Below, piece by piece: positions 1,336 to 14,581 of a stretch of DNA of 40,621 nt. Position 1 is the first letter of the stretch. The number at the start of each line of letters is the position of its first letter. Origin of the DNA: Anaerolineales bacterium (lineage in GTDB: Bacteria > Chloroflexota > Anaerolineae > Anaerolineales > Villigracilaceae); contig JACZJB010000028.1 of assembly GCA_014860805.1 (NCBI GenBank), forward strand, positions 1-40,621. Direction: 5' to 3'. Below the pieces are notes generated by a model. It ran no database searches, was not told the origin of the DNA, and saw nothing but the letters and a program-made list of their open reading frames with translations. Both the position numbers and the translations under genes were made by a program.

Positions 1336-2889
1336 ATGACAAACGAAGATCCCAGAATTTTGGAATTGAGGAAGATACGCGCCAAAGCATTGGAAGGCGG
1401 CGGCGAGGAACGCAACGCAAAGCAGCGAGCCAAAGGAAAATTGACGGCGCGCGAACGTGTGGAGCTGCTGCTGGACCCGGGCACGTTCAACGAGATCGAG
1501 CCATTCATCACACATCAAGGCGATGAGATGGATTTGTTGAAGGAAAAGTTTTATGGGGATGGGGTGATCACAGGCTACGGACAGATCAACGGGCGGACAG
1601 TGTATCTCTATTCACAGGATTTCACAATTTATGGCGGCACACTCAGCGAGATGCAGTCACACAAGATTTGCCGCGTGATGGATCTGGCTGTCCGCAACGG
1701 CGTGCCATTCATTTCGTTGATCGATTCGGGCGGCGCGCGCATTCAAGAAGGCGTGCGTTCGATGGGCGGCTATGCCGAAATTTTCAGACGCAATGCGCAG
1801 TACTCGGGCGTGGTTCCGCAAGTGAGCGTGATGCTTGGGCCATGCGCGGGCGGCGCAGCCTACTCCCCTGCTTTGACTGACATAGTCATCATGGTGGAAA
1901 AATCATCCTTCATGTTCCTGACGGGACCCGACGTGATCAAAGCCGTCACAGGTGAAGTGATCGACGCCGAATCATTGGGCGGCGCGAATGTGCATACTTC
2001 CGTCAGCGGCGTGGCGCATGTGAGCGTGCAAAACGAAAAAGCTGCGTTGGATATGGCGCGTCATTTCCTTTCTTATTTGCCATCCAACAACGTGGAAAAT
2101 CCGCCGTATGTTCAACCCACTGATTCTTTATCTCGCATGAATGAAGATTTGAATCACATGATTCCGCTCGAAGCCACCGAGCCGTATGTGATGCACCAGG
2201 TCATCGAAAAAATCATTGACACGGATTCCTTCCTTGAAATTCAACCCGATTGGGCGCGCAATGCCATCGTGGGTCTCGCGCGCATCGGCGGACACAGCGT
2301 TGGCATCGTCGGTCAGGAACCCGCCATCATGGCGGGCGTGATCGACATTGACGCCGCCGATAAAATGACTCGCTTCGTACGTATGTGTGACTGCTTCAAT
2401 ATTCCACTTGTCACCTTCGTTGACTCGCCCGGATTTTTACCCGGCATCGCACAGGAACATGGCGGCATTATTCGTCATGGCGCAAAACTTTTGTATGCCT
2501 ATTCCGAAGCCACTGTGCCTAAGATCTGCGTCATCACCCGCAAAGCCTATGGCGGCGCGTATGTAGTCATGTCCAGCAAGTACCTTGGAACGGATGTCAC
2601 CTACGCGTGGCCGTCCGCTGAGATCGCTGTCCTTGGCGCGGAAGGTGCGGCAAATATTTTGTTCAAGAAACAAATTGAAACTTCGAACGACCCTGCTGCC
2701 GAACGCAAAAAACTCGCAGCTGAATATCGCGAGAAATTCAACAATCCATATTACGCCGCTTCCACGGGTTATGTGGACGACATCATCGAGCCGCGCGAAT
2801 CAAGGCCGAAGATCATCGCGTCGCTGTCTGCACTCCGCGACAAGTACGCGCCTGCACCTCCGCGCAAGCATGGAAATATCCCTGTCTAG
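1336..2889 (+). CDS. mmdA: Methylmalonyl-CoA decarboxylase/carboxyltransferase alpha subunit
   Basis: Encodes 517 residues, the usual size for MmdA/PccB-type acyl-CoA carboxyltransferases and shorter than glutaconyl-CoA decarboxylase alpha (about 590). It transfers the carboxyl group of (S)-methylmalonyl-CoA to the biotin carrier. The N-terminal crotonase-like half has GGARIQEG at 132-139 and the oxyanion-hole stretch GPCAGGAAY at 168-176; the second half has VDSPGFLPG from residue 362 and AYGGAY at 404-409. The start follows an AGAGGA ribosome site. It is first of four genes in the order A-D-C-B, as known from Propionigenium modestum, which favours a sodium-pumping decarboxylase over a biosynthetic ATP-dependent carboxylase; no biotin carboxylase gene is adjacent. 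It could in principle serve propionyl-CoA carboxylation with a distant partner. Confidence 0.92.
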   Translation: MTNEDPRILELRKIRAKALEGGGEERNAKQRAKGKLTARERVELLLDPGTFNEIEPFITHQGDEMDLLKEKFYGDGVITGYGQINGRTVYLYSQDFTIYGGTLSEMQSHKICRVMDLAVRNGVPFISLIDSGGARIQEGVRSMGGYAEIFRRNAQYSGVVPQVSVMLGPCAGGAAYSPALTDIVIMVEKSSFMFLTGPDVIKAVTGEVIDAESLGGANVHTSVSGVAHVSVQNEKAALDMARHFLSYLPSNNVENPPYVQPTDSLSRMNEDLNHMIPLEATEPYVMHQVIEKIIDTDSFLEIQPDWARNAIVGLARIGGHSVGIVGQEPAIMAGVIDIDAADKMTRFVRMCDCFNIPLVTFVDSPGFLPGIAQEHGGIIRHGAKLLYAYSEATVPKICVITRKAYGGAYVVMSSKYLGTDVTYAWPSAEIAVLGAEGAANILFKKQIETSNDPAAERKKLAAEYREKFNNPYYAASTGYVDDIIEPRESRPKIIASLSALRDKYAPAPPRKHGNIPV

Positions 2890-2905
2890 TCAAAGAGAAA
2901 ATTTT

Positions 2906-3259
2906 ATGACAGACTTAATCCTCTCATTACAAATTACCGCCCTCGGCATGGGGCTTGTCTTTGGCGCGATTCTTTTGCTGTGGTTGATGATGGTGATCTT
3001 GACAGCACTGACTGCGGAAAAAGATGCTTCGACTACACTCAGCGTGGACAGCGCTTCTGACTCAGCCGCAACTGCTCCCGTTTCTGAAACAGACTACAAA
3101 CTGCAAGCTGCCGCAATCGCTGTGGCGGTGGCGCTTGCAGAGCAAGAGTTATCGTCCGCGCACCCGCTGCCTGACCCACCCACGGCAATTGTCTCTGCAT
3201 GGCAGTTGGGCATGCGGACCAGTCAACGCTCGCAAAAGGGCAATTTTAGAAGACATTAA
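2906..3259 (+). CDS. mmdD: OadG/MmdD-type small membrane subunit of sodium pump decarboxylase
   Basis: Encodes 117 residues from the ATG at 2906, 16 bases after mmdA. There is one membrane helix at about residues 8-35, then a linker rich in Ser, Thr and Ala, and an AAAIAVAVALAEQE segment followed by a basic C-terminus containing WQLGMRTSQRSQKG. One N-terminal helix plus an Ala-rich segment and a W-x(2)-G-R-like tail fits the OadG/MmdD family, which assembles the complex and joins the carboxyltransferase to the membrane beta subunit. Sequence similarity in this family is always weak, so the call leans on gene order. The ribosome site is poor, suggesting coupling to mmdA. Confidence 0.75.
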   Translation: MTDLILSLQITALGMGLVFGAILLLWLMMVILTALTAEKDASTTLSVDSASDSAATAPVSETDYKLQAAAIAVAVALAEQELSSAHPLPDPPTAIVSAWQLGMRTSQRSQKGNFRRH

Positions 3260-3264
3260 TAACC

Positions 3265-3298
3265 AGACTTCCAAGGTATTAAAAAACCTGGGAGGTCT
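3265..3298 (+). promoter_or_regulatory. Hairpin that could cover the ribosome site of the biotin carrier gene
   Basis: Arms 3265-3277 and 3286-3298 pair over 13 positions with one G-U wobble and one mismatch, enclosing an A-rich loop. The 3' arm contains GGAGGT (3291-3296), one of two possible ribosome sites for the gene starting at 3310; the other, GGAG at 3301, is outside the stem. The hairpin lacks a U tract, so regulation of translation or mRNA stability is more likely than termination. Confidence 0.4.
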
Positions 3299-3309
3299 CT
3301 GGAGACTCC

Positions 3310-3771
3310 ATGAAATATAAAATCACGGTCAAAAACAAATTATACGAAGTTGAGATCGAAAATATCAACGCGAGACCTGTCATTGCGCACGTGGATGGTG
3401 AACGGTTTGAGATTCTGCCCGGGGACGTGAATCAGGCTGAAACAAAGAAAGAAGCGAACAAACCAGCGGAGAAGAAATCCTTTAATCCGAATCCTGCCCC
3501 AGCAGTGACTATTTCTCCAAATCCTGCAATTAGCGGAAATAACTTAACCGCTCCCCTGCCTGGCACGGTAGTGGATGTGTTCGTGAAGCCTGGCGATAAA
3601 GTGGAAGCAGGGCAGGTTGTGCTGATCATCGAAGCCATGAAAATGAAGAACAGCATTCGCTCGGTGTTCAGCGGGACGATCAGTGAAGTGCTTGTCAGCG
3701 CGGGACAAAGCGTGGCGCACAAACAGGCATTGGTCAAATTCGCGGATTTGGGCGAGGCCTCATGGATGTAG
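3310..3771 (+). CDS. mmdC: Biotin carrier subunit of acyl-CoA decarboxylase
   Basis: Encodes 153 residues. The C-terminal biotinyl/lipoyl domain, about residues 78-147, carries the biotinylation motif EAMKMKN with the acceptor lysine at K111 and the flanking PGTVVDVFVKPGD and AGQ hairpin strands. An N-terminal segment (1-40) resembles the start of other MmdC/GcdC carriers, and residues 43-78 form a Pro/Ala/Asn-rich flexible linker that lets the biotin arm travel between subunits. It accepts the carboxyl group from MmdA and delivers it to MmdB. Its last ten bases overlap the start of mmdB, implying translational coupling. A biotin protein ligase must be supplied from elsewhere. Confidence 0.93.
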   Translation: MKYKITVKNKLYEVEIENINARPVIAHVDGERFEILPGDVNQAETKKEANKPAEKKSFNPNPAPAVTISPNPAISGNNLTAPLPGTVVDVFVKPGDKVEAGQVVLIIEAMKMKNSIRSVFSGTISEVLVSAGQSVAHKQALVKFADLGEASWM

Positions 3772-4898
3772 GTTCATTACTTCCTGATCTCATCAAAGGG
3801 TTTACCCATTTTACACTCGGCAATGCAGTGATGATCCTGGCTGCATTGATCTTGATCTATCTTGCTGTCTTTAAAGAGATCGAACCTGTGCTGTTGCTGC
3901 CCATCGGTTTTGGATGTTTGCTGGCGAATATTCCATTGGCAGGCATGACCGCCGCGGAAGGCATGACGAAGGTTCTGTACGATGCAGGGATCAAGACAGA
4001 ATTATTCCCATTGCTGATCTTTATCGGCGTCGGCGCGATGATCGACTTCTCGCCGCTGCTTGCACAGCCGCGATTGGTCTTGCTCGGCGCGGCAGGACAA
4101 TTTGGAATCTTCGGCACATTGATACTCGCAATTCTATTGGGCTTTCCACTAAATCAAGCCGCCTCCATCGGAGTGATCGGCGCAATTGACGGACCAACCT
4201 CCATTTTCGTGGCGACCAAACTCGCGCCTGAGTTGCTTGCTCCCATTGCAGTAGCCGCTTATTCATACATGAGTTTGATTCCGATCATCCAACCGCCCTT
4301 GATGAAGTTGCTGACCACAAAAAAAGAGCGCCTCATCCAAATGGAATATGCGCCCAAGCCCATTTCAAAAATGACGTTGATCCTTTTCCCCGTTGTGCTG
4401 ACTCTGGTTGTCGGCTTGCTCGTCCCGGAAGCCACGCCGCTCATCTCCATGCTCATGCTGGGAAATCTGCTCAAAATGTCTGGCGTAGTGGACAGACTTA
4501 GCAAAGCCGCAGAAAACGAGATCATCAACATCTCAACCTTGTTCCTCGGTCTGGCAATCGGCTCCACCATGAGCGCCGCCGCCTTCCTCAATTTGGATAC
4601 GGGCAAGATCATGGTGCTGGGATTGTTCGCCTTCGTGCTCGACACCGTCGCTGGATTGTTATTCGGAAAATTGATGTGTGTTATCTCAGGCGGCAAGATC
4701 AATCCACTCATTGGTGCGGCGGGCATCTCTGCCTTCCCAATGGCAGGACGTTTGGCTGCGAAAACTGCCAACGATGAAGACCCAAACAATTTCATCCTCA
4801 TGCACGCCATGGGAGCGAATACCGCAGGTCAACTGGGGAGCGTGATCGCAGGCGGCATTTTGCTTTCGGTGGTCAGTAAGATGTTGGGGATTTTGTAA
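3762..4898 (+). CDS. mmdB: Sodium ion-translocating decarboxylase beta subunit
   Basis: Encodes a 378-residue polytopic membrane protein of the OadB/MmdB/GcdB family. It decarboxylates carboxybiotin and uses the energy to export sodium. Residues known to be essential in Klebsiella OadB have equivalents with identical spacing: D143 (in GAIDGPTSIF) and Y169 are 26 apart, like D203 and Y229; N314, G318 and S323 match the N373-G377-S382 set. About nine to eleven hydrophobic segments are visible. It is last in the operon and is followed within five bases by a terminator. With the three upstream genes it forms a complete primary sodium pump, giving the cell a sodium gradient from methylmalonyl-CoA. 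Confidence 0.95.
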   Translation: MDVGSLLPDLIKGFTHFTLGNAVMILAALILIYLAVFKEIEPVLLLPIGFGCLLANIPLAGMTAAEGMTKVLYDAGIKTELFPLLIFIGVGAMIDFSPLLAQPRLVLLGAAGQFGIFGTLILAILLGFPLNQAASIGVIGAIDGPTSIFVATKLAPELLAPIAVAAYSYMSLIPIIQPPLMKLLTTKKERLIQMEYAPKPISKMTLILFPVVLTLVVGLLVPEATPLISMLMLGNLLKMSGVVDRLSKAAENEIINISTLFLGLAIGSTMSAAAFLNLDTGKIMVLGLFAFVLDTVAGLLFGKLMCVISGGKINPLIGAAGISAFPMAGRLAAKTANDEDPNNFILMHAMGANTAGQLGSVIAGGILLSVVSKMLGIL

Positions 4899-6972: not shown

Positions 6973-7003
6973 CAAGGGCGGGTCATATCCGCCCTTGTTT
7001 TAT
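6973..7003 (+). terminator. Intrinsic terminator
   Basis: CAAGGGCGG (6973-6981) pairs perfectly with CCGCCCTTG (6989-6997) around a seven-base loop and is followed by TTTTAT. It begins four bases after the PLP enzyme stop codon. Confidence 0.88.
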
Positions 7004-7006
7004 AAT
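7001..7006 (+). promoter_or_regulatory. -10 box for a probably leaderless transcript
   Basis: TATAAT overlaps the T tract of the terminator and ends seven bases before the ATG at 7013. Transcription would start at about the A of the start codon. No ribosome site lies between, which fits a leaderless mRNA. No good -35 box is visible. Confidence 0.5.
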
Positions 7007-7012
7007 AGCGGC

Positions 7013-7576
7013 ATGCTCAAACCTACGGATCTGATACTTGTCTGTCTGCTGCCTACCCCAAGAGATTTGGAAATTGCGCGGCTACTAGGATGGTATCGCA
7101 TCCCGCTTCGCACCGCGCCGAAAGTTGTTACCGTAGACTATCTGGCTTTTTACCAGCCTTCGGCATTTGGCGAGCACGGCGGAAAGATCGAATTCATCGC
7201 CCAGGTTAAAGGGCACGAACTCACCACCCGCGCTGAATTGCTCAAAGACGAAGCCGGCCACCCGCGAGCAAACGAGGAGTATTACAAGATCCAGCTTGGC
7301 GGGCTCGAAAGGTTGAAAGACCCTATCCGGGCGGAGAAATGGAAGCGTCTCACCTTCCTGTATTCCACTGGCGAGTATCTGGTCAACGCAAAATTATTGA
7401 ACGACCTGGTCGTGCAAAATCAGGAACGCGAGATTCTCTGGAAAAACCTGCGCGAACGAGCCGAAAATGAGCAGCTTTACAAAACGGAACTGCCAGAAAC
7501 AGATATTCCGCCTGAAATATTGATGGCTCTTCTGGGAATCAAAGACTTACAGGCAGATTACGACGTCCCCCAATAG
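7013..7576 (+). CDS. Conserved-looking protein of unknown function
   Basis: Encodes 187 residues from the ATG at 7013; an in-frame ATG at 6995 falls inside the terminator stem. The protein is soluble, charged and mixed alpha/beta in character, opening with a hydrophobic strand (LILVCLLPTPRDLE), followed by WYRIPLRTAPKVVTVDYLAFYQ and a Lys/Glu-rich helical C-terminal half. There is no signal peptide, membrane helix or recognisable catalytic motif. It lies 50 bases before the receiver/roadblock/transposase-like fusion gene on the same strand, but each has its own promoter-like sequence, so a joint function is only a guess. Confidence 0.65.
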   Translation: MLKPTDLILVCLLPTPRDLEIARLLGWYRIPLRTAPKVVTVDYLAFYQPSAFGEHGGKIEFIAQVKGHELTTRAELLKDEAGHPRANEEYYKIQLGGLERLKDPIRAEKWKRLTFLYSTGEYLVNAKLLNDLVVQNQEREILWKNLRERAENEQLYKTELPETDIPPEILMALLGIKDLQADYDVPQ

Positions 7577-7589
7577 TCCTCACGTGTCC

Positions 7590-7618
7590 TTGATTCCACC
7601 TCTACTAAGTGATAAACT
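7590..7618 (+). promoter_or_regulatory. Promoter candidate for the fusion gene
   Basis: TTGATT (7590-7595) and TAAACT (7613-7618) are 17 bases apart, each matching four of six consensus bases. The -10 box ends eight bases before the ATG at 7627, so the transcript would have almost no leader. Confidence 0.35.
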
Positions 7619-7626
7619 TCTTACAA

Positions 7627-9267
7627 ATGCCAGCTGACCTACTTATCGTCACTCCTTCAGCCAGCCTCGGCGAATCAATCCGCCGCACACTGGATGAGAC
7701 CAAGCTATATCGATGCCATGTTGTCAACAACAAAGCTTCTGCAATAGTACGCGCAGACGAAATTGGCGTACCTCTTGCTATGTTGGACGCGGCACTGGGT
7801 GAAGATTGGGTCCTTGAGATCGGCAATGCATTGCGAACCGTTCGTCCGGGCCTCAATCTCATCGTTCTTTGCGACGAAAATGGTACTCCACCCGCTTTTG
7901 ACGACTTGCGCCCCTGGATTCTCATCCGCAAACCATTTAAGATGTCAGGATTTATGACCGCAATTAGTCAACCACAACAACCCGCCGCATCTGCCCCGCA
8001 ACCGAGCGCAACTGCTCCCTTGCCGTGGCTTAGTGATCAAACAAAAGCGGCGCAGCATCTCACCCGCCTCACTTTGGAATCTTCCGCCCAGGCTGCATTA
8101 ATTACCCTGAAGAATGATTTGTGGGCATACGCAGGCGGACTTTCACAAAATGCAGCCAAGGAAGTAGCTCAGACCGTCACCCGCAATTGGGATGGGCAAA
8201 AAGGCTCCGACCTTCTTCGCTTCATCCGACTCGAAAGCACCAAAGCTGAACATATGCTGTACGCCACGCGCCTCACGTCCGAGACCGTGCTTGCATTCGT
8301 GTTCGACGCGGAAACTCCCTTCAGCACCATTCGCGCACAGGCAAGCCAACTCGTCAATGACTTTGGCAGCGACAGACCTGAGCCGCAAAAACCTGTCAAG
8401 TCTGCACCCAAACAGATCAACGATTTTCCCGATGATCTGGAAGAAAGCGACGCTCTGGATATCGCCCCGATTTCAAACATCCTCACCGATATTCCCACGC
8501 CAAACCCCGAACCCGCCTCTGCACGTGACCTTGGCATGCCGCGTCAAAAAGAAAAATTCGACCCCAACCAAACACGAATTTCCGAGTCGCTCTCAAACGC
8601 ATCGGTTTTCAACCGTGAGCCCTCTCCTTCCATTCAAATGGGGCACCGGATGATGGATCAGACTCAGGCTTCAAAAACGAGTTCCGAGACTCAAACCGCG
8701 TTTGACGATGTGGAAGTCACAGCGCCGTCACGATCACAGCCAAGGCCGGAAACGCCTGTTGCCAAACCCGCCAGTGAAACGGACACGACTCGCGAAAGTC
8801 CATCCACTGAAGCGGCACGGAAATTGGTTGTAGAACCGACCACTGCCGGTTTATATCACCTGACATATGCCTGTCTGCTCGTACCAAGATTTTCCTCTCA
8901 TTACATCACAGGCGATCTGGCTGACCATCTTGGCGAATGGCTTCCAAATATCTGCATTGCCTTTGGCTGGCGCTTGGAATATCTGGCGGTGAGACCTGAA
9001 TATTTGCAGTGGGTTGTGAATGTACAGCCAAACACCTCCCCTGGGTATCTCATGCGCATCATGCGCCAGCAAACTTCTGAAAAGATATTTAGCGAATTCA
9101 ACCGCTTCAAGAAAGAAAATCCATCCGGTGATTTCTGGGCGCCGGGGTATCTCATCATGGGCGGTACGCAGCCTCATCCGCCGCAACTGGTCCGGGATTA
9201 TATCCGCCAGACTCGCCAGCGTCAGGGACAGGAATCCGCTCCGCCCCCTCCGCGCGGACACCAATAA
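7627..9267 (+). CDS. Receiver-like / roadblock / degenerate IS200-type transposase domain fusion
   Basis: Encodes 546 residues from the ATG at 7627; a GTG at 7609 would add six. Three regions are visible. Residues 1-112 look like a response-regulator receiver (LLIVTPSASLGESIRRTL, a central MLDAALG where the phospho-acceptor region should be, a terminal IRKPF). Residues about 134-246 resemble a roadblock/LC7 domain, a dimer module often tied to small GTPases. A Pro/Ser/Thr-rich linker runs from 247 to about 400. Residues 407-534 resemble the Y1 (IS200/RAYT) transposase fold: YHLTYACLL, a helix, GWRLEYLAVRPEYLQWVVNV where HUH enzymes have MPDHVH, and VRDYIRQT where the catalytic tyrosine sits (Y525). 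The two HUH histidines are replaced by Tyr and Gln, so the domain is probably a nucleic-acid or protein binder without nuclease activity. Domain calls are by eye. Confidence 0.65.
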   Translation: MPADLLIVTPSASLGESIRRTLDETKLYRCHVVNNKASAIVRADEIGVPLAMLDAALGEDWVLEIGNALRTVRPGLNLIVLCDENGTPPAFDDLRPWILIRKPFKMSGFMTAISQPQQPAASAPQPSATAPLPWLSDQTKAAQHLTRLTLESSAQAALITLKNDLWAYAGGLSQNAAKEVAQTVTRNWDGQKGSDLLRFIRLESTKAEHMLYATRLTSETVLAFVFDAETPFSTIRAQASQLVNDFGSDRPEPQKPVKSAPKQINDFPDDLEESDALDIAPISNILTDIPTPNPEPASARDLGMPRQKEKFDPNQTRISESLSNASVFNREPSPSIQMGHRMMDQTQASKTSSETQTAFDDVEVTAPSRSQPRPETPVAKPASETDTTRESPSTEAARKLVVEPTTAGLYHLTYACLLVPRFSSHYITGDLADHLGEWLPNICIAFGWRLEYLAVRPEYLQWVVNVQPNTSPGYLMRIMRQQTSEKIFSEFNRFKKENPSGDFWAPGYLIMGGTQPHPPQLVRDYIRQTRQRQGQESAPPPPRGHQ

Positions 9268-9342: not shown

Positions 9343-12147
9343 ATGCCCCCTACCCTTTATCTAATCGATGGACACGCACTTGCCTACCGCATGTATTTTG
9401 CCCTGACCGCAGGCGGAGGAAACAACTCCCGCTGGCAAACGTCAAAAGGCGAACCCACAGCAGGCGTGTATGGATTTGCGCGCGAACTCGTCCGCGTACT
9501 GGAACAGGAAAAGCCTGAATATCTCGCCGTAGCATTTGATGTGGGAAAAACTTTCCGCGATGATATCTTCCCCGAATATAAGGGTACTCGCGAAAAAATG
9601 CCTGATGACCTGCGCCCGCAGTTGGACCGCATCCGCGAGATGGTGGATGCTTTCAACATCCCGCGCCTTGAAATGGAAGGTTACGAAGCCGATGATGTTC
9701 TTGGAAGCGTGGCCAAAATCGCCGCAGAAAAAGGCTTGGGTGTAAAAATAATCACAGGCGACAGAGACCTGCTTCAGCTGGTCAATGAGCGAACGGCAGT
9801 TTATCTCGCAGGGGACGACCAGACTTACATCTCCGATGCGGATGTCATCAAAAAATTGGGCGTGCGCGCAAATCAAGTGGTGGACTACAAAGCCATCGTC
9901 GGCGACACCTCGGATAACATTCCCGGTGTGAAAGGCGTTGGAGAAAAAACAGCGATCGCATTGCTTGAAAAATTTCAAACGCTGGATGCGATCTATGCAA
10001 ATTTAGACCAAGTGGAGAATCGCTGGAAGGGAAAATTTGAGGCGAGCAAAGAAACAGCCTACATGAGTTACGATCTGGCAAAAATCAAAGTAGACCTCAA
10101 AATCAATTTTGATTTCGAACACGCTGCGGTTAAACCATTTGACCCGACCAAGCTCGAAACCTTCTTCAAGGAAATGGAGTTCAAAACCCTGCTGGCAAAA
10201 GTCCCTGTCATCAGCGGTGGAACTGCGGCTGTAACAGAAGTTCTTGCAAAGCCCAAAAAGGGAAAGGCCGGCGAGCAGATTTCCATGTTCCAAAACCAGC
10301 CGCAAGTCGTGACCTTTTCCCAGCCTTCGAACATTGAAGTCGTACTCGTGGATACGGATGAAAAACTCAATGCGTTGGTAAAAGAACTTGCGAAGGCAAA
10401 CGTTATTTCGTTTGACACGGAAACCACATCCACTGAAGAAATGAAAGCGGAAATCGTCGGCATATCCCTGGCGGTCAAAGACGGTCAGGGATATTACATT
10501 CCCGTTGGCCATTCAATTGGCAATAACCTGTCCATTGAAAAAGTCATCGAAGCGCTGACACCATCCATGACGGATGCAAAGATCGGCAAGGTGGCGCACA
10601 ATGCCAAATATGATTACATCGTTCTCGCAAAGTATGGATTGATCGTTTCGCCGCTCACCTTCGATACAATGCTGGCTGAATTTATCGTTGACCCATCTTC
10701 GCGAAACCTTGGTTTGAAAAACCTCGCATCTTTCCGCCTCGGGGAAGAGATGACCCACATCGAAGAACTGATCGGGAAAGGCAAAAAACAAATTAGCATG
10801 GCAGACGTTGCCGTTGAGTCCGCAGCCCCGTATGCCGCCGCAGATGCGGAAAATACCCTGCGTCTCATGCCGATCATGCAAAAAGAACTGGACCGCGTAA
10901 ACGGCACAAAACTTCTCGATGAAATCGACATGCCGCTGACCGCTGTTCTCGCAGATATGGAAATGACCGGCGCGCTGATCGATGTTAAATTCTTCGCTGA
11001 AATGTCGAAGGAATTGGAAAAACGACTGGCCGAAATCGAAAAAGAAATTTACGGACACGCGGGCAAGACCTTCAACATCAACTCGCCGCAGCAGCTTTCG
11101 GACGTGCTTTTCAACCACTTGCGCCTCGAACCACCCGACAAAGGACGAAAAACAGCAACAGGCTTTTACTCCACCTCAGCAGACGTGCTGGATGCGTTGC
11201 GCGATAAACATCCCATCCTCGAATGGATCCTTGAACAGCGTGAATTATCCAAGCTCAAATCCACCTATGTGGACGCCCTGCCCGCCCAAGTGGATGAAAA
11301 CACAGGCCGCGTACACACCTCCTACAGCCAGATCGGCGCGGTGACGGGACGCCTTTCATCGAACAACCCGAACTTGCAGAACATCCCAATCCGCACTGAA
11401 ACGGGACGGCGCGTGCGCAATGGTTTCATTGCTGACAAAGGCAATGCATTGCTTTCTGTGGATTACTCGCAAATCGAATTACGCATCGTCGCGCACATGG
11501 CACAGGATGAAGCCATGATCGCAGCCTTCCGCGCAGGAGAAGACATCCACGCCACGACCGCCGCCGCCATATATGACCTTGAATTGGATAAAGTGACCAA
11601 AGATATGCGCCGCCACGCCAAAGCCATCAACTTTGGACTGATCTATGGCATGTCGGCATTCGGGCTCACCCGCTCCACCGAATTGACCCTGGCTGAAGCT
11701 GAAGATTTCGTCAAAGCCTATTTCAGGAAATTCCCCGGCGTAAAAAAATATCTCGATGGCATGCGCAGACAAGCCGCCGAGATCGGCTATGTGGAAACAT
11801 TGCTTGGACGTAAACGCTATTTCCCTGCCTTGCAGGGCAAGGTCAATGTACAAATGAAGAACCGAGAAGAACGCGAAGCTATCAACGCACCCATTCAAGG
11901 TACGGCTGCGGACATTATGAAAATCGCCATGCTGAAGATTCCATCCGCGCTGAAAAATGCTGGATTAAAAGGCAAAATGCTTTTACAAGTGCACGATGAA
12001 CTTGTGCTCGAATGTCCAAAAAATGAAGTGCAAAAGACGGCGCAAGTCGTTCAGGAGACAATGGCAAATGCCTACCCGATAAGCGTCCCTCTCGAAACAG
12101 AAGCAAGAGCGGGCGCAAATTGGGGCGAGATGTCCGTATTAAAATAA
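9343..12147 (+). CDS. polA: DNA polymerase I
   Basis: Encodes 934 residues, full length for a three-domain PolA that fills repair gaps and removes Okazaki primers. The 5' nuclease domain occupies about residues 1-290 (YLIDGHALAYR; GDRDLLQLV; GVKGVGEKTA). The 3'-5' exonuclease domain (about 330-530) keeps its acidic residues: D358 and E360 in FDTET, the HNAKYDY segment, and YAAADAENT, so proofreading is predicted to be active. In the polymerase domain, motif A is VDYSQIELR with D707, motif B is RRHAKAINFGLIYG, and motif C is QVHDELV with D885. The ribosome site AAGAAG is modest. The gene seems to be transcribed alone, with a terminator before it and a new -10 box after it. Confidence 0.98.
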   Translation: MPPTLYLIDGHALAYRMYFALTAGGGNNSRWQTSKGEPTAGVYGFARELVRVLEQEKPEYLAVAFDVGKTFRDDIFPEYKGTREKMPDDLRPQLDRIREMVDAFNIPRLEMEGYEADDVLGSVAKIAAEKGLGVKIITGDRDLLQLVNERTAVYLAGDDQTYISDADVIKKLGVRANQVVDYKAIVGDTSDNIPGVKGVGEKTAIALLEKFQTLDAIYANLDQVENRWKGKFEASKETAYMSYDLAKIKVDLKINFDFEHAAVKPFDPTKLETFFKEMEFKTLLAKVPVISGGTAAVTEVLAKPKKGKAGEQISMFQNQPQVVTFSQPSNIEVVLVDTDEKLNALVKELAKANVISFDTETTSTEEMKAEIVGISLAVKDGQGYYIPVGHSIGNNLSIEKVIEALTPSMTDAKIGKVAHNAKYDYIVLAKYGLIVSPLTFDTMLAEFIVDPSSRNLGLKNLASFRLGEEMTHIEELIGKGKKQISMADVAVESAAPYAAADAENTLRLMPIMQKELDRVNGTKLLDEIDMPLTAVLADMEMTGALIDVKFFAEMSKELEKRLAEIEKEIYGHAGKTFNINSPQQLSDVLFNHLRLEPPDKGRKTATGFYSTSADVLDALRDKHPILEWILEQRELSKLKSTYVDALPAQVDENTGRVHTSYSQIGAVTGRLSSNNPNLQNIPIRTETGRRVRNGFIADKGNALLSVDYSQIELRIVAHMAQDEAMIAAFRAGEDIHATTAAAIYDLELDKVTKDMRRHAKAINFGLIYGMSAFGLTRSTELTLAEAEDFVKAYFRKFPGVKKYLDGMRRQAAEIGYVETLLGRKRYFPALQGKVNVQMKNREEREAINAPIQGTAADIMKIAMLKIPSALKNAGLKGKMLLQVHDELVLECPKNEVQKTAQVVQETMANAYPISVPLETEARAGANWGEMSVLK

Positions 12148-12271: not shown

Positions 12272-14581
12272 ATGCCCGGAAGAGATGACGTTTTCCAAAA
12301 AGCAATGAACGAAGGCCACTCCGCCGCCTGGGACCAGGAATGGGCAAAGGCAGTGAGTGCGTATCGCCGCGCCTTGCAGGAAATGCCCGATAACCCAAAA
12401 GCGCTCAGCAGTTTGGGGCTTGCCTTATATCAGTCAGGCAACATCGAAGAAGCCCTGCAAATTTACATGAACGTGGCAAAACTTTCTCCGGACGACCCCG
12501 TGCCAATGGAAAAAGTGGCACAGCTTTCCGAAAGACTTGGCAATTTAAAAAACGCAATGGATGCGGCCATCCGCGCTGGCGATCTTTTTCTTCAACAGCG
12601 CGATGCTGACAAGGCACTCGAGAACTGGGTGCGGGTCACAAACTTAAATCCCGAACATGCGATTGCCCGTTCGCGCCTCGCGCAGGTACATGAAAAACTT
12701 GGGCATACTCAGCAAGCCGTAACGGAATATCTTGCACTGGCAAGTATTATCCAACGCGCGGGCAATGCTGAAAAATCAAAAGAAATGGTGGATAAAGCCC
12801 AATCCATTTCACCGAACAGCCAGGAAGTAAAACAAGCGCAGACCCTACTTAAAACGGGACAACTCCTTCCCAAACCAATTCGTGGCAAAGGCGGAACGGG
12901 ACCAATTCGCATGTCGCAAGTGAAGCAATTGCAGGAACCGCAAAAGACCGCCTCCGGTCTGGACCCGATTGCGGAAGCGCGCCAAAAAGCATTAACTCAA
13001 CTGGCTGAACTGCTCTTTGAATTCTCCGATGAAAGCCCAGCCGCACAGGAACGACGCGGTCTCTCCGCCATCATGAAAGGCACGGGCGGAATTTCCCTCC
13101 AGCAAGCGGAACAAACCAAAGTTGTACTTCATCTCGGCCAAGCCATTGATTCGCAAAGCAAAGGCAAAGAAGCCCAGGCCGCCGAGGAAATGGAAGCCGC
13201 GCTGGAGGCAAATTTCAAACATCCCGCCTTATATTTCAACCTGGGATTATTGCGCTTCAAGGGTGACCGTTATGAAAGCGCGCAACGCTTTTTACAGAAC
13301 GCTGTCAAGCATTCCGATTACGCGCTTGGAACCCGTCTGCTGCTGGGACAAATGCTCGTCAGGAAATCAGATTTTCACAATGCCTCGCTGGAATATCTTG
13401 AGGCATTAAAACTCGCCGACTCGATGACCGTCCCTGCCGACAAAATGGATGATATCCGCCAGCAATACGAGCCGATCATCGAAGCGCAAAAAAATCAAAA
13501 GGATGAAAATATCCTGCGAAAGGTCTGCGAGAACATCAACAGCCTGCTCACCCGTCCCGACTGGCGGGAACAACTACGCAAAACCCGCGACCAAATGCCG
13601 AAGCAGGATGGCGAAATGCCTTCTCCGCTTGCAGATGTGATCCTTCAGGCTCAATCCAGTTCCGTGCTTGAGTCGATGAATCGCATCAATCAACTGGCGC
13701 GCATGGGAACGCTGCGGTCCGCCATGGATGAAGCCTATGACGCCGTCATGCATGCCCCCACATATTTGCCCCTCCACACGCTCATGGGCGACCTCCTTGT
13801 GCAGGAAGGCCGCCCTGCAGAGGCCATTGCAAAATATATTGTAGTTGCGCAATCCTACAGCGCGCGCGGAGAGGTCTTACAAGCTACAAAATTATTGCGG
13901 CGTATCATCCAACTCTCGCCCATGGACCTTGGCGCGCGCAACCGTTTGATCGAACAACTAACCGCGCGCGGACAGGTTGATGATGCGATCCAGGAATATC
14001 TTGAACTGGCAGCCATTCATTATCGTCTTGCTGAACTCGATATGGCGCGTAAAACCTATACAACTGCCCTGCGACTCGTCCAGCAAGGCAACGCCAGCCG
14101 AGATTGGAACATACACATCCTTCAGCGCATGGCCGACATTGATCTGCAGCGATTGGACTGGAAACAAGCCCTGCGCGTGTACGAACAGATCCGCACCCTT
14201 GCCCCCGATGACGACTCAGCCCGCAAACAGATCATCGAACTTAACCTGCGCATGGCACAGCCCGACAAGGCTTTGAGCGAACTTGAGAATTACATCAATC
14301 ATCTTGAAAACCAAAATAAAAATGACCTGGCCGTCACCTTCCTGGAAGAACTTATCAAGGAACATGAAGATCAGCCCCTGCTCAAACGCACGCTTGCCGC
14401 CCAACTCCATCAAATGGGGCGCACCCCTGAAGCTGTCACTCTGCTCGATGTCCTTGGCGAAATACTTGTGGAAAAGGGAGACAGAGAAGGTGCAATCGAT
14501 GTCATCAACCAGATCGTGTTAATGAATCCACAAAACGTGGAAGACTACCGCCAGCTTCTGAAGCAACTAAGAGGCGGATAG
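12272..14581 (+). CDS. Large tetratricopeptide-repeat protein
   Basis: Encodes 769 residues without signal peptide or membrane helix. TPR units are clear in three clusters: about residues 15-190 (WDQEWAKAVSAYRRALQEMPDNPKALSSLGLALYQ and following units), about 290-400, and about 490-760. A basic, Gly-rich linker near 195-225 separates the first two. TPR arrays form superhelices that hold other proteins, and nothing points to enzymatic activity. The partner is unknown. It lies alone between polA and ctaA, with its own -10 box and a strong terminator, so genomic context gives no function. The ribosome site is weak. Confidence 0.88.
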   Translation: MPGRDDVFQKAMNEGHSAAWDQEWAKAVSAYRRALQEMPDNPKALSSLGLALYQSGNIEEALQIYMNVAKLSPDDPVPMEKVAQLSERLGNLKNAMDAAIRAGDLFLQQRDADKALENWVRVTNLNPEHAIARSRLAQVHEKLGHTQQAVTEYLALASIIQRAGNAEKSKEMVDKAQSISPNSQEVKQAQTLLKTGQLLPKPIRGKGGTGPIRMSQVKQLQEPQKTASGLDPIAEARQKALTQLAELLFEFSDESPAAQERRGLSAIMKGTGGISLQQAEQTKVVLHLGQAIDSQSKGKEAQAAEEMEAALEANFKHPALYFNLGLLRFKGDRYESAQRFLQNAVKHSDYALGTRLLLGQMLVRKSDFHNASLEYLEALKLADSMTVPADKMDDIRQQYEPIIEAQKNQKDENILRKVCENINSLLTRPDWREQLRKTRDQMPKQDGEMPSPLADVILQAQSSSVLESMNRINQLARMGTLRSAMDEAYDAVMHAPTYLPLHTLMGDLLVQEGRPAEAIAKYIVVAQSYSARGEVLQATKLLRRIIQLSPMDLGARNRLIEQLTARGQVDDAIQEYLELAAIHYRLAELDMARKTYTTALRLVQQGNASRDWNIHILQRMADIDLQRLDWKQALRVYEQIRTLAPDDDSARKQIIELNLRMAQPDKALSELENYINHLENQNKNDLAVTFLEELIKEHEDQPLLKRTLAAQLHQMGRTPEAVTLLDVLGEILVEKGDREGAIDVINQIVLMNPQNVEDYRQLLKQLRGG

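Follow-up and report, generated by a model that had tools for sequence, protein, structure and literature searches.

The DNA analysed here, hereafter the window, spans positions 1 to 40,621 of contig JACZJB010000028.1 (assembly GCA_014860805.1) from an Anaerolineales bacterium of the phylum Chloroflexota. Our subject is a single gene in it, which encodes a protein where a receiver-like domain and an MglB-like roadblock/LC7 domain are joined through a mostly disordered linker to a domain of the Y1 transposase (IS200 TnpA) type that has lost the histidine pair of its HUH active site (Table 1). A hairpin separates this gene from polA, the gene for DNA polymerase I, which lies directly downstream on the same strand. 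A first-pass annotation, made from the sequence alone, had proposed this combination of domains, and all three assignments are borne out by profile, Pfam, and fold evidence. The linkage to polA, the stand-alone paralogues, and the two-domain relatives described below were no part of that annotation.

Table 1. Features of the fused gene and its surroundings in the window
Feature	Position	Strand	Residues, basis and remarks
Receiver-roadblock-pseudoY1 gene	7627..9267	+	546-amino-acid open reading frame; homologues known
Receiver-like domain	7627..7980	+	Residues 1-118; PDB profile, fold; Asp54 and Lys102-Pro103 kept; Thr-Pro at positions 9-10, no acid
MglB-like roadblock/LC7 domain	8020..8370	+	Residues 132-248; AlphaFold2 topology, Foldseek, profile match to MglB (E 0.0014)
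Mostly disordered linker	8371..8841	+	Residues 249-405; pLDDT (predicted local distance difference test) mostly <50; stretches of lower entropy
Catalytically degenerate Y1 (IS200 TnpA-type HUH) domain	8842..9231	+	Residues 406-535; Pfam, NCBIfam, PDB, fold
HUH motif position	9001..9009	+	Tyr459-Leu460-Gln461 replacing His-x-His; aligned to His-x-His of 16 motif-picked proteins
Catalytic-tyrosine position	9199..9201	+	Tyr525; Tyr 84, Phe 7, gap 1 of 92 rows
C-terminal R-x-R-Q-G motif	9214..9228	+	Near-invariant; Arg530 and Gln533 in 91 of 92 rows
Hairpin with TATAAT in loop	9275..9303		Terminator-like, possibly also polA promoter element
polA, DNA polymerase I	9343..12147	+	NCBIfam DNA polymerase I over cut-off; conserved neighbour
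TPR-repeat protein	12272..14581	+	Next gene in 56 of 80 database loci, contig ends uncorrected

Two alignments underlie the counts given below, namely, a 92-row alignment of the window protein with 91 homologous open reading frames (ORFs), in which L001 is the window sequence again and some species are present twice, from two collections, and a 48-row alignment of the window protein with 47 of these ORFs, picked for diversity and full length, from which the frameshifted L022 was left out. The first methionine is invariant in the 48-row alignment, the ORF starts of the homologues having been picked as those nearest to the aligned start, and this supports initiation at 7627, with an alternative GTG start possible at 7609. 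The full-length AlphaFold2 model shows three confidently modelled domains, with ten-residue pLDDT means mostly above 90; its predicted template modelling score is 0.34, so that the arrangement of the domains relative to one another is not predicted.

The C-terminal domain is homologous to the Y1 transposases, far beyond chance. The Pfam family Y1_Tnp (PF01797) matches residues 410-528 with an E-value of 3.6e-12, over positions 3-120 of the 121 in the model, and the NCBIfam model for IS200/IS605 matches residues 409-527 with an E-value of 6.6e-14 and 52.2 bits against a cut-off of 55 (the C-terminal piece alone scores 56 bits). When a profile built from the 48 homologues was compared with PDB, eight distinct sequences were recovered at E <= 1, every one of them labelled as a transposase, the best at 2.1e-20. 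The predicted fold tells the same story: in the VIA comparison with PDB, the Y1 block aligns with 2ec2 (Z 16.6, root-mean-square deviation (rmsd) 2.5, 113 aligned positions, residues 401-514) and with 2fyx (Z 16.5, rmsd 2.8, 128 aligned positions, residues 402-534), and in a Foldseek search with the whole model, TnpA chains occupy ranks 1 to 27. The E-values in independent libraries rule out chance or composition as the source of the match. The Y1 plan that had been read from the last 130 or so residues thus holds at every level, including structure prediction, where a fold other than HUH would have spoken against it.

The metal site, in contrast to the fold, is gone, as the first reading had it, and the replacements are themselves conserved. 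The first HUH position is occupied by tyrosine in 87 of the 92 rows and by histidine in two; the second, by glutamine in 86 and by histidine in two; and the residue that follows, Trp462 in the window protein, is tryptophan in 88. Across 136 distinct Y1-type domains, transposases and paralogues included, the combination YxQ occurs 102 times and HxH three times, in the transposase-like stand-alone proteins L128 and L129 and in L119. The same annotation emphasized that the catalytic tyrosine is kept, which is true of the window protein and not uniformly so of the family, given that phenylalanine takes its place in seven of the 92 rows and in 31 of the 136 domains (tyrosine in 99), and that L129 has histidine in this column. 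Because the catalytic tyrosine is so often phenylalanine in relatives, the retention of Tyr525, as judged from these alignments, means little here. Fixed replacement residues, in turn, would point to a new use of the pocket, not to decay.

The degenerate site is kept under purifying selection among homologues, a point that the first-pass annotation had proposed to test. The median ratio of nonsynonymous to synonymous substitution rates (dN/dS), obtained with our own Nei-Gojobori count, is 0.025 for the Y1 domain, 0.033 for the roadblock domain, 0.089 for the receiver, and 0.146 for the linker, over the 41 of 62 close pairs that passed a filter of at least 40 codons and dS between 0.05 and 2 in every region; these pairs are not independent, sequences recurring from one to another. 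The three highest values for the Y1 domain (0.284, 0.401, and 0.546) all come from pairs with the frameshifted L022, the next being 0.075 and 0.060. The Y1 domain, then, is under strong purifying selection and constrained at least as much as the rest of the protein. What the sequence has to tell is that this is a domesticated, very probably non-cleaving HUH module and not a working transposase.

The other two domains are of the signalling type. The receiver profile matches response regulators in PDB with an E-value of 1.9e-14, and the receiver block aligns in VIA with the receiver of YycF (Z 17.1, rmsd 2.1, 116 aligned positions); Pfam Response_reg is reached at E <= 0.1 by 27 of the 48 homologues, the window protein itself not being among them. 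The phospho-acceptor Asp54 is present in 82 of 83 ungapped rows and Lys102 in 81 of 85. The receiver-like assignment therefore stands on fold and profile, with the correction that the domain is atypical: the acid at the end of beta-1 (positions 9-10) is absent in 83 of 84 proteins of the Anaerolineales-type Y1 fusion, whereas one acid is present there in all 23 two-domain (receiver-roadblock) relatives, and other Y1-bearing receiver proteins are mixed (9 of 21). The receiver thus turned atypical in the lineage of the Anaerolineales-type fusion, which may have been one event.

For the roadblock domain, sequence support is weaker than fold support. The middle block, predicted alone, has the order helix-b-b-helix-b-b-b-helix characteristic of roadblock proteins, with a pLDDT of 86, and yields 84 Foldseek matches at E <= 0.001, the best 50 of which include MglB, p14/LAMTOR2, chains of the Ragulator complex, and a Streptomyces Roadblock/LC7 domain; topology and matches thus agree where a different structure would have told against the original assignment. 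In the profile comparison with PDB, eight of the 12 matches at E <= 10 are MglB (E 0.0014), with an unrelated topoisomerase at 0.012. Pfam Robl_LC7 is touched by two of the 48 homologues, with a weak best E-value of 0.082, and is not reached by the window protein, for which Pfam gives only Y1_Tnp at E <= 10. The best 50 VIA rows of the full-length model contain no roadblock chains, the list being filled with receivers and TnpA, and this is not evidence against the roadblock assignment.

The roadblock and Y1 domains are separated by a spacer of about 155 residues, with pLDDT mostly below 50 from about residue 249 to 408 and stretches of lower entropy near residues 286-300, 316-330, and 361-405 in the 92-row alignment. 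The linker also carries short conserved motifs, such as TRxSPxTEAA in the 48-row consensus, for which a role as phosphorylation or binding sites is possible.

The fusion is widespread, occurring in many Chloroflexota genomes, across which the first-pass annotation had proposed to search. A query with the full protein matches 37 of 41 relatives, some of the matches being parts or stand-alone copies, and the fused gene is present in 24 of 25 members of the genus, including the genome that contains the window, G013 showing only a partial gene. A scan of public genomes found 88 loci, of which 80 were kept (the database loci below), mostly from bins titled Anaerolineales, Chloroflexi, or similar. 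The roadblock profile matches 74 of 298 genomes of the class and 32 of 400 in a sample of the phylum, all 32 from the same class, the share of the 400 that lies outside this class not being given. Class-wide, in other families too, the architectures are receiver-roadblock alone or receiver-roadblock-Y1; in some versions of the latter, receiver and roadblock stand about 150 to 750 residues apart. Pfam finds Y1 in all eight distant versions tested, with E-values from 8.6e-16 (L131) and 1.7e-11 (L187) at the top end to 1.4e-4 (L195) and 7.1e-4 (L200), the two weakest, both below the curated cut-off. Several homologues of 419-431 amino acids (L082, L088, and L095-L097) seem to be without the receiver, starting just before the roadblock domain, no separate receiver ORF upstream of them having been looked for, and three class-level ORFs of 152-191 amino acids (L217, L222, and L223), each directly upstream of polA, match the roadblock profile and show no receiver or Y1 match.

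Only one Y1_Tnp domain is found in the genome of the window (rated 96.8% complete; a draft in 274 contigs), synteny is conserved, and insertion sequence ends were looked for only at the hairpin. Among 72,556 plasmid records, there are seven partial matches, none covering 80% of the protein, and the five listed are annotated as tnpA; 50,697 phage records give no match to the protein. A mobile element is thus unsupported, and, because synteny is conserved, vertical inheritance of the fused gene is inferred. A known antiphage system is likewise rejected, PADLOC having matched nothing to the window protein.

The most stable neighbour relation is that with polA, which is not by itself proof of function. 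In 71 of the 80 database loci, polA follows the fused gene immediately and in the same orientation; 73 of these loci have at least 2 kb downstream, and 68 of the 73 have polA (L093, L094, L101, L107, and L110 do not). The same holds for 10 of 13 order-level loci, the other three having polA within 3.6 kb, and for 16 of 40 class-level loci, which are a fetched subset of the 74 genomes with matches; two of these loci belong to the same order, and the downstream sequence reaches at least 2 kb in 35 of the 40. Other window neighbours recur less often, PALP in 28 and a 193-amino-acid gene in 30 of the 80 database loci (contig ends uncorrected here too); the latter, the ORF upstream at 6995-7576, has no match in Pfam, NCBIfam, or PADLOC. 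We also considered an MglA-like small GTPase (L264, 1900-2436, 179 amino acids), named from Arf matches in a search that returned mostly other GTPases. It is found in 34 of 41 relatives and was not found in G000, G003, G010, G011, G014, G019, and G038, five of which carry the fused gene, some of them incomplete; as an obligatory partner, it is rejected.

Degenerate Y1 domains also occur on their own, as open frames of 144-286 amino acids in genomes of the genus. In the Y1 tree, from which short rows were dropped and in which rows were thinned at 80% identity, these stand-alone copies form one 18-row clade (support 98/95) inside the fused group and separate from the transposases (100/97); the clade sits in a fork with fused proteins (94/93) and in a wider fork (95/85), the tree being rooted at its midpoint only. 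Three further proteins bear the same label in the tree: L137, whose fused gene is truncated at the end of its contig, together with L230 and L244, both placed among transposases. Derivation of the fused domain from the stand-alone copies appears less likely than the reverse, since, under the midpoint root, the stand-alone clade nests among fused proteins. The unrooted receiver-roadblock tree (thinned at 72% identity, short rows dropped and cut copies of loci fetched again excluded) has a fully supported 14-row clade without Y1 and requires at least four changes of Y1 presence, so that a single gain of Y1 is not supported as such.

The stand-alone copies keep company of their own. An Mrr_cat-like gene adjoins eight of the 18 loci (L112-L116, L124, L126, and L127), with a further related gene beyond each; the calls rest on Pfam for the L112 protein and on similarity to it for the other seven. 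In L112, 1947-3861 holds the stand-alone Y1 gene followed by the Mrr_cat-like gene (Pfam 2.4e-8; PADLOC candidate PDC-S02 1.1e-20), and the recurrent cassette could be a defence or repair unit. A DUF1521-type gene is paired with the stand-alone Y1 in four of the 18 loci (L117, L119 at 2141-3862, L120, and L123; Pfam was run on three), and in the remaining six, neither gene is present within the stretch fetched.

Taken together, these observations suggest an evolutionary scenario in which a Y1 transposase domain joined a receiver-roadblock protein whose gene sits next to polA across much of the class, lost its metal site, and turned into a binding module. The protein that resulted would be a single-copy chromosomal adaptor, and we consider this account rather probable. 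In such an adaptor, the roadblock domain would dimerise and serve as the platform on which a partner sits, either an NTPase or a different roadblock protein. The receiver would take in signals or provide a docking site, and in this lineage it is probably not subject to ordinary phosphorylation. The paired pseudo-Y1 domains would reach their target by way of the flexible linker and would bind it without cutting. TnpA is dimeric. MglB is homodimeric (PMC10329633), so that one homodimer of the window protein could show two roadblock and two Y1 faces on flexible linkers.

As to the target, we see about an even chance that it is structured or single-stranded DNA, that is, a hairpin, flap, or fork, which we take to be likelier than a protein alone because of the polA and Mrr_cat-like neighbours and because a basic surface is kept in the Anaerolineales-type domain. 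The mean net charge is +2.8 in the 48 fused Y1 domains and +3.0 in the 16 motif-picked HxH proteins; the fused domains have conserved arginines at positions 421, 449, 456, 477, 480, 493, and 530, and Arg480 sits where 15 of the 16 HxH proteins carry lysine. A more elaborate version, unlikely as it stands, would have the dead hairpin-reading transposase domain act as the DNA-sensing arm of a receiver-roadblock switch working with DNA polymerase I; the pseudo-nuclease would read hairpins, flaps, or stalled forks, with the roadblock platform relaying the state to a partner, and the dead domain would later have been copied out as a free module into gene pairs with Mrr_cat-like and DUF1521 proteins.

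Several observations weigh against a DNA-binding adaptor tied to polA. Position 423 is arginine or lysine in all 16 HxH proteins and serine, proline, or threonine in 44 of the 48 fused ones. The class-level Y1 versions are acidic, 11 of 17 rows having a net charge of -4 or lower, and the mean for the stand-alone group is no more than +0.2 (21 rows), both of which argue against a general DNA-binding role. In 24 of the 40 class-level loci (four of these with less than 2 kb downstream), the linkage to polA is missing; where present, it could reflect slow drift of gene order, and polA may have a promoter of its own in this genus. A necessary role for the hairpin as partner is contradicted by its absence from 14 of the 80 database loci and from each of the 11 order-level loci inspected. 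Finally, the MglA-like GTPase was not found in the genome of the window (G000) or in G003, G010, G011, and G019, all of which carry the fused gene, several of these genomes being incomplete.

The strongest alternative, to which we give a substantial chance, if one short of even, takes the pseudo-Y1 domain for a purely protein-protein or dimerisation module, in which nucleic-acid binding would have gone along with cleavage. The acidic class-level and near-neutral stand-alone versions fit this possibility, as does the fixation of the former active-site residues Tyr459, Gln461, and Trp462, which is to be expected of a new ligand or protein surface; roadblock proteins, furthermore, work with proteins, as PMC10329633 describes. 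However, the Anaerolineales-type domains stay basic, with several near-invariant arginines, and the neighbours are polA and, for the stand-alone copies, the Mrr_cat-like gene.

Y1 proteins bind hairpins, and the hairpin downstream of the gene, AAGCGCAGAGTATAATCAACTCTGCGCTT, could in principle be the target in an arrangement like that of the TnpAREP proteins associated with repetitive extragenic palindromic (REP) sequences. A single copy of the core with its TATAAT loop, next to the fused gene, is present in each of 19 of the 25 genus genomes, and the 16 other relatives have none; among the 80 database loci, the full pattern is complete in 44, the stem is combined with a different loop in nine, the match is looser in 13, and 14 have no match, whereas the strict stem arises in three of 4000 shuffled stretches. 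An outer stem pair, judged by eye, changes on both sides. However, the hairpin scans as a terminator, and its stem seems to be one that terminators commonly have. Counted on one strand with any loop of 2-30 bases, this stem turns up between 0 and 21 times in each of the genomes of 41 relatives (0 to 5 for the reversed control), and twice in the genome of the window. L052 and L065 retain GTATAAT with most of the stem gone; no such stem accompanies polA and the intact Y1 domain in L051, L067, L081, L085, and L108, and it is also missing from the order-level loci; and of the nine database loci without polA in view, eight have no hairpin (two with little sequence left). The case for the hairpin as a Y1 target, attractive at first sight, is weakened both by loci without it and by the recurrence of the terminator-like stem elsewhere. 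As an obligatory target it seems unlikely, given homologues that do without it and keep the Y1 domain intact, although the domain may still bind it. The plain reading would be a terminator combined with a polA promoter element, and a TnpAREP-like arrangement we regard as very improbable.

Even less credence is due to the idea that the protein still cleaves or joins DNA by means of Tyr525 and a rebuilt metal site. It can draw on the tyrosine kept in most of the 92 rows and on HxQ, YxH, or HxH in a few relatives, whereas, in nearly every row, other residues stand in for both metal histidines, tyrosine gives way to phenylalanine in fused proteins of the same family as well, and L119, the one HxH protein among the degenerate stand-alone copies, has phenylalanine for tyrosine. 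That the fusion stems from faulty assembly or from read-through of a decaying transposase remnant, as the draft state of the genome, the frameshift in L022, and the genus matches that are cut or contain a stop (G013 and G020) might hint, is already refuted by the homologues, with the same fusion in many independent genomes, the low dN/dS, and conserved synteny leaving it a practically negligible chance.

Many bacteria of one Chloroflexota class, in sum, keep a transposase domain that has lost its metal site tethered in a signalling-type protein, often encoded beside the DNA polymerase I gene. This offers a testable example of a mobile-element enzyme turned cell component and draws attention to a polA neighbour in Anaerolineae that is so far unstudied and may be a partner. 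Among the titles and abstract openings listed by literature searches, there was no paper on a receiver-roadblock-Y1 fusion, and we know of no bacterial chromosomal case in which an inactivated Y1 domain is fused to signalling domains, kept under strong selection across families of a class, and redistributed as a stand-alone module.

Comparison with known systems helps to delimit what is new. With the IS200/IS605 TnpA (PF01797), the window protein shares a homologous domain over nearly the full length and the same fold; it differs in the replaced HUH pair, the three-domain chain, the synteny, and the status of its Y1 domain as the only one found in the genome. The TnpAREP/RAYT proteins, too, are chromosomal Y1 proteins and are regarded as domesticated (PMC6006769, PMC8266576). 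All of them, however, share the HuH/Y core for cleavage of single-stranded DNA, and five subclasses are flanked by REP sequences, according to PMC6006769, in which a few unexpectedly long RAYT proteins are set aside as gene fusions or annotation errors. In the window protein, this core is lost, and no flanking REP-type repeat was seen, no genome-wide repeat scan having been made. The origin-binding domains of polyoma- and papillomaviruses, which have an HUH fold without the signature motifs and have passed from an enzymatic to a structural role (PMC6668415), are alike in this respect, and yet they are viral, of the Rep type, and combined with a superfamily 3 (SF3) helicase, whereas the window protein is bacterial and combines a Y1-type domain with signalling-type ones, with no match to an SF3 helicase domain in Pfam at E <= 10. 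The polarity module of Myxococcus, with MglB/MglC and RomR, offers an MglB-like roadblock fold and, in RomR, likewise a receiver followed by a disordered region. There, however, as PMC10329633 has it, these are separate proteins and RomR ends in a Glu-rich C-terminal helix, whereas in the window one chain holds them all and ends in Y1; moreover, the MglA-like GTPase of relatives was not found in its own genome. Domesticated Y1 proteins, such as TnpAREP, and inactivated HUH domains, such as those of the viral initiators, are thus already known, and the window protein is neither; what is new is a domesticated, inactivated HUH domain inside a bacterial signalling-type protein.

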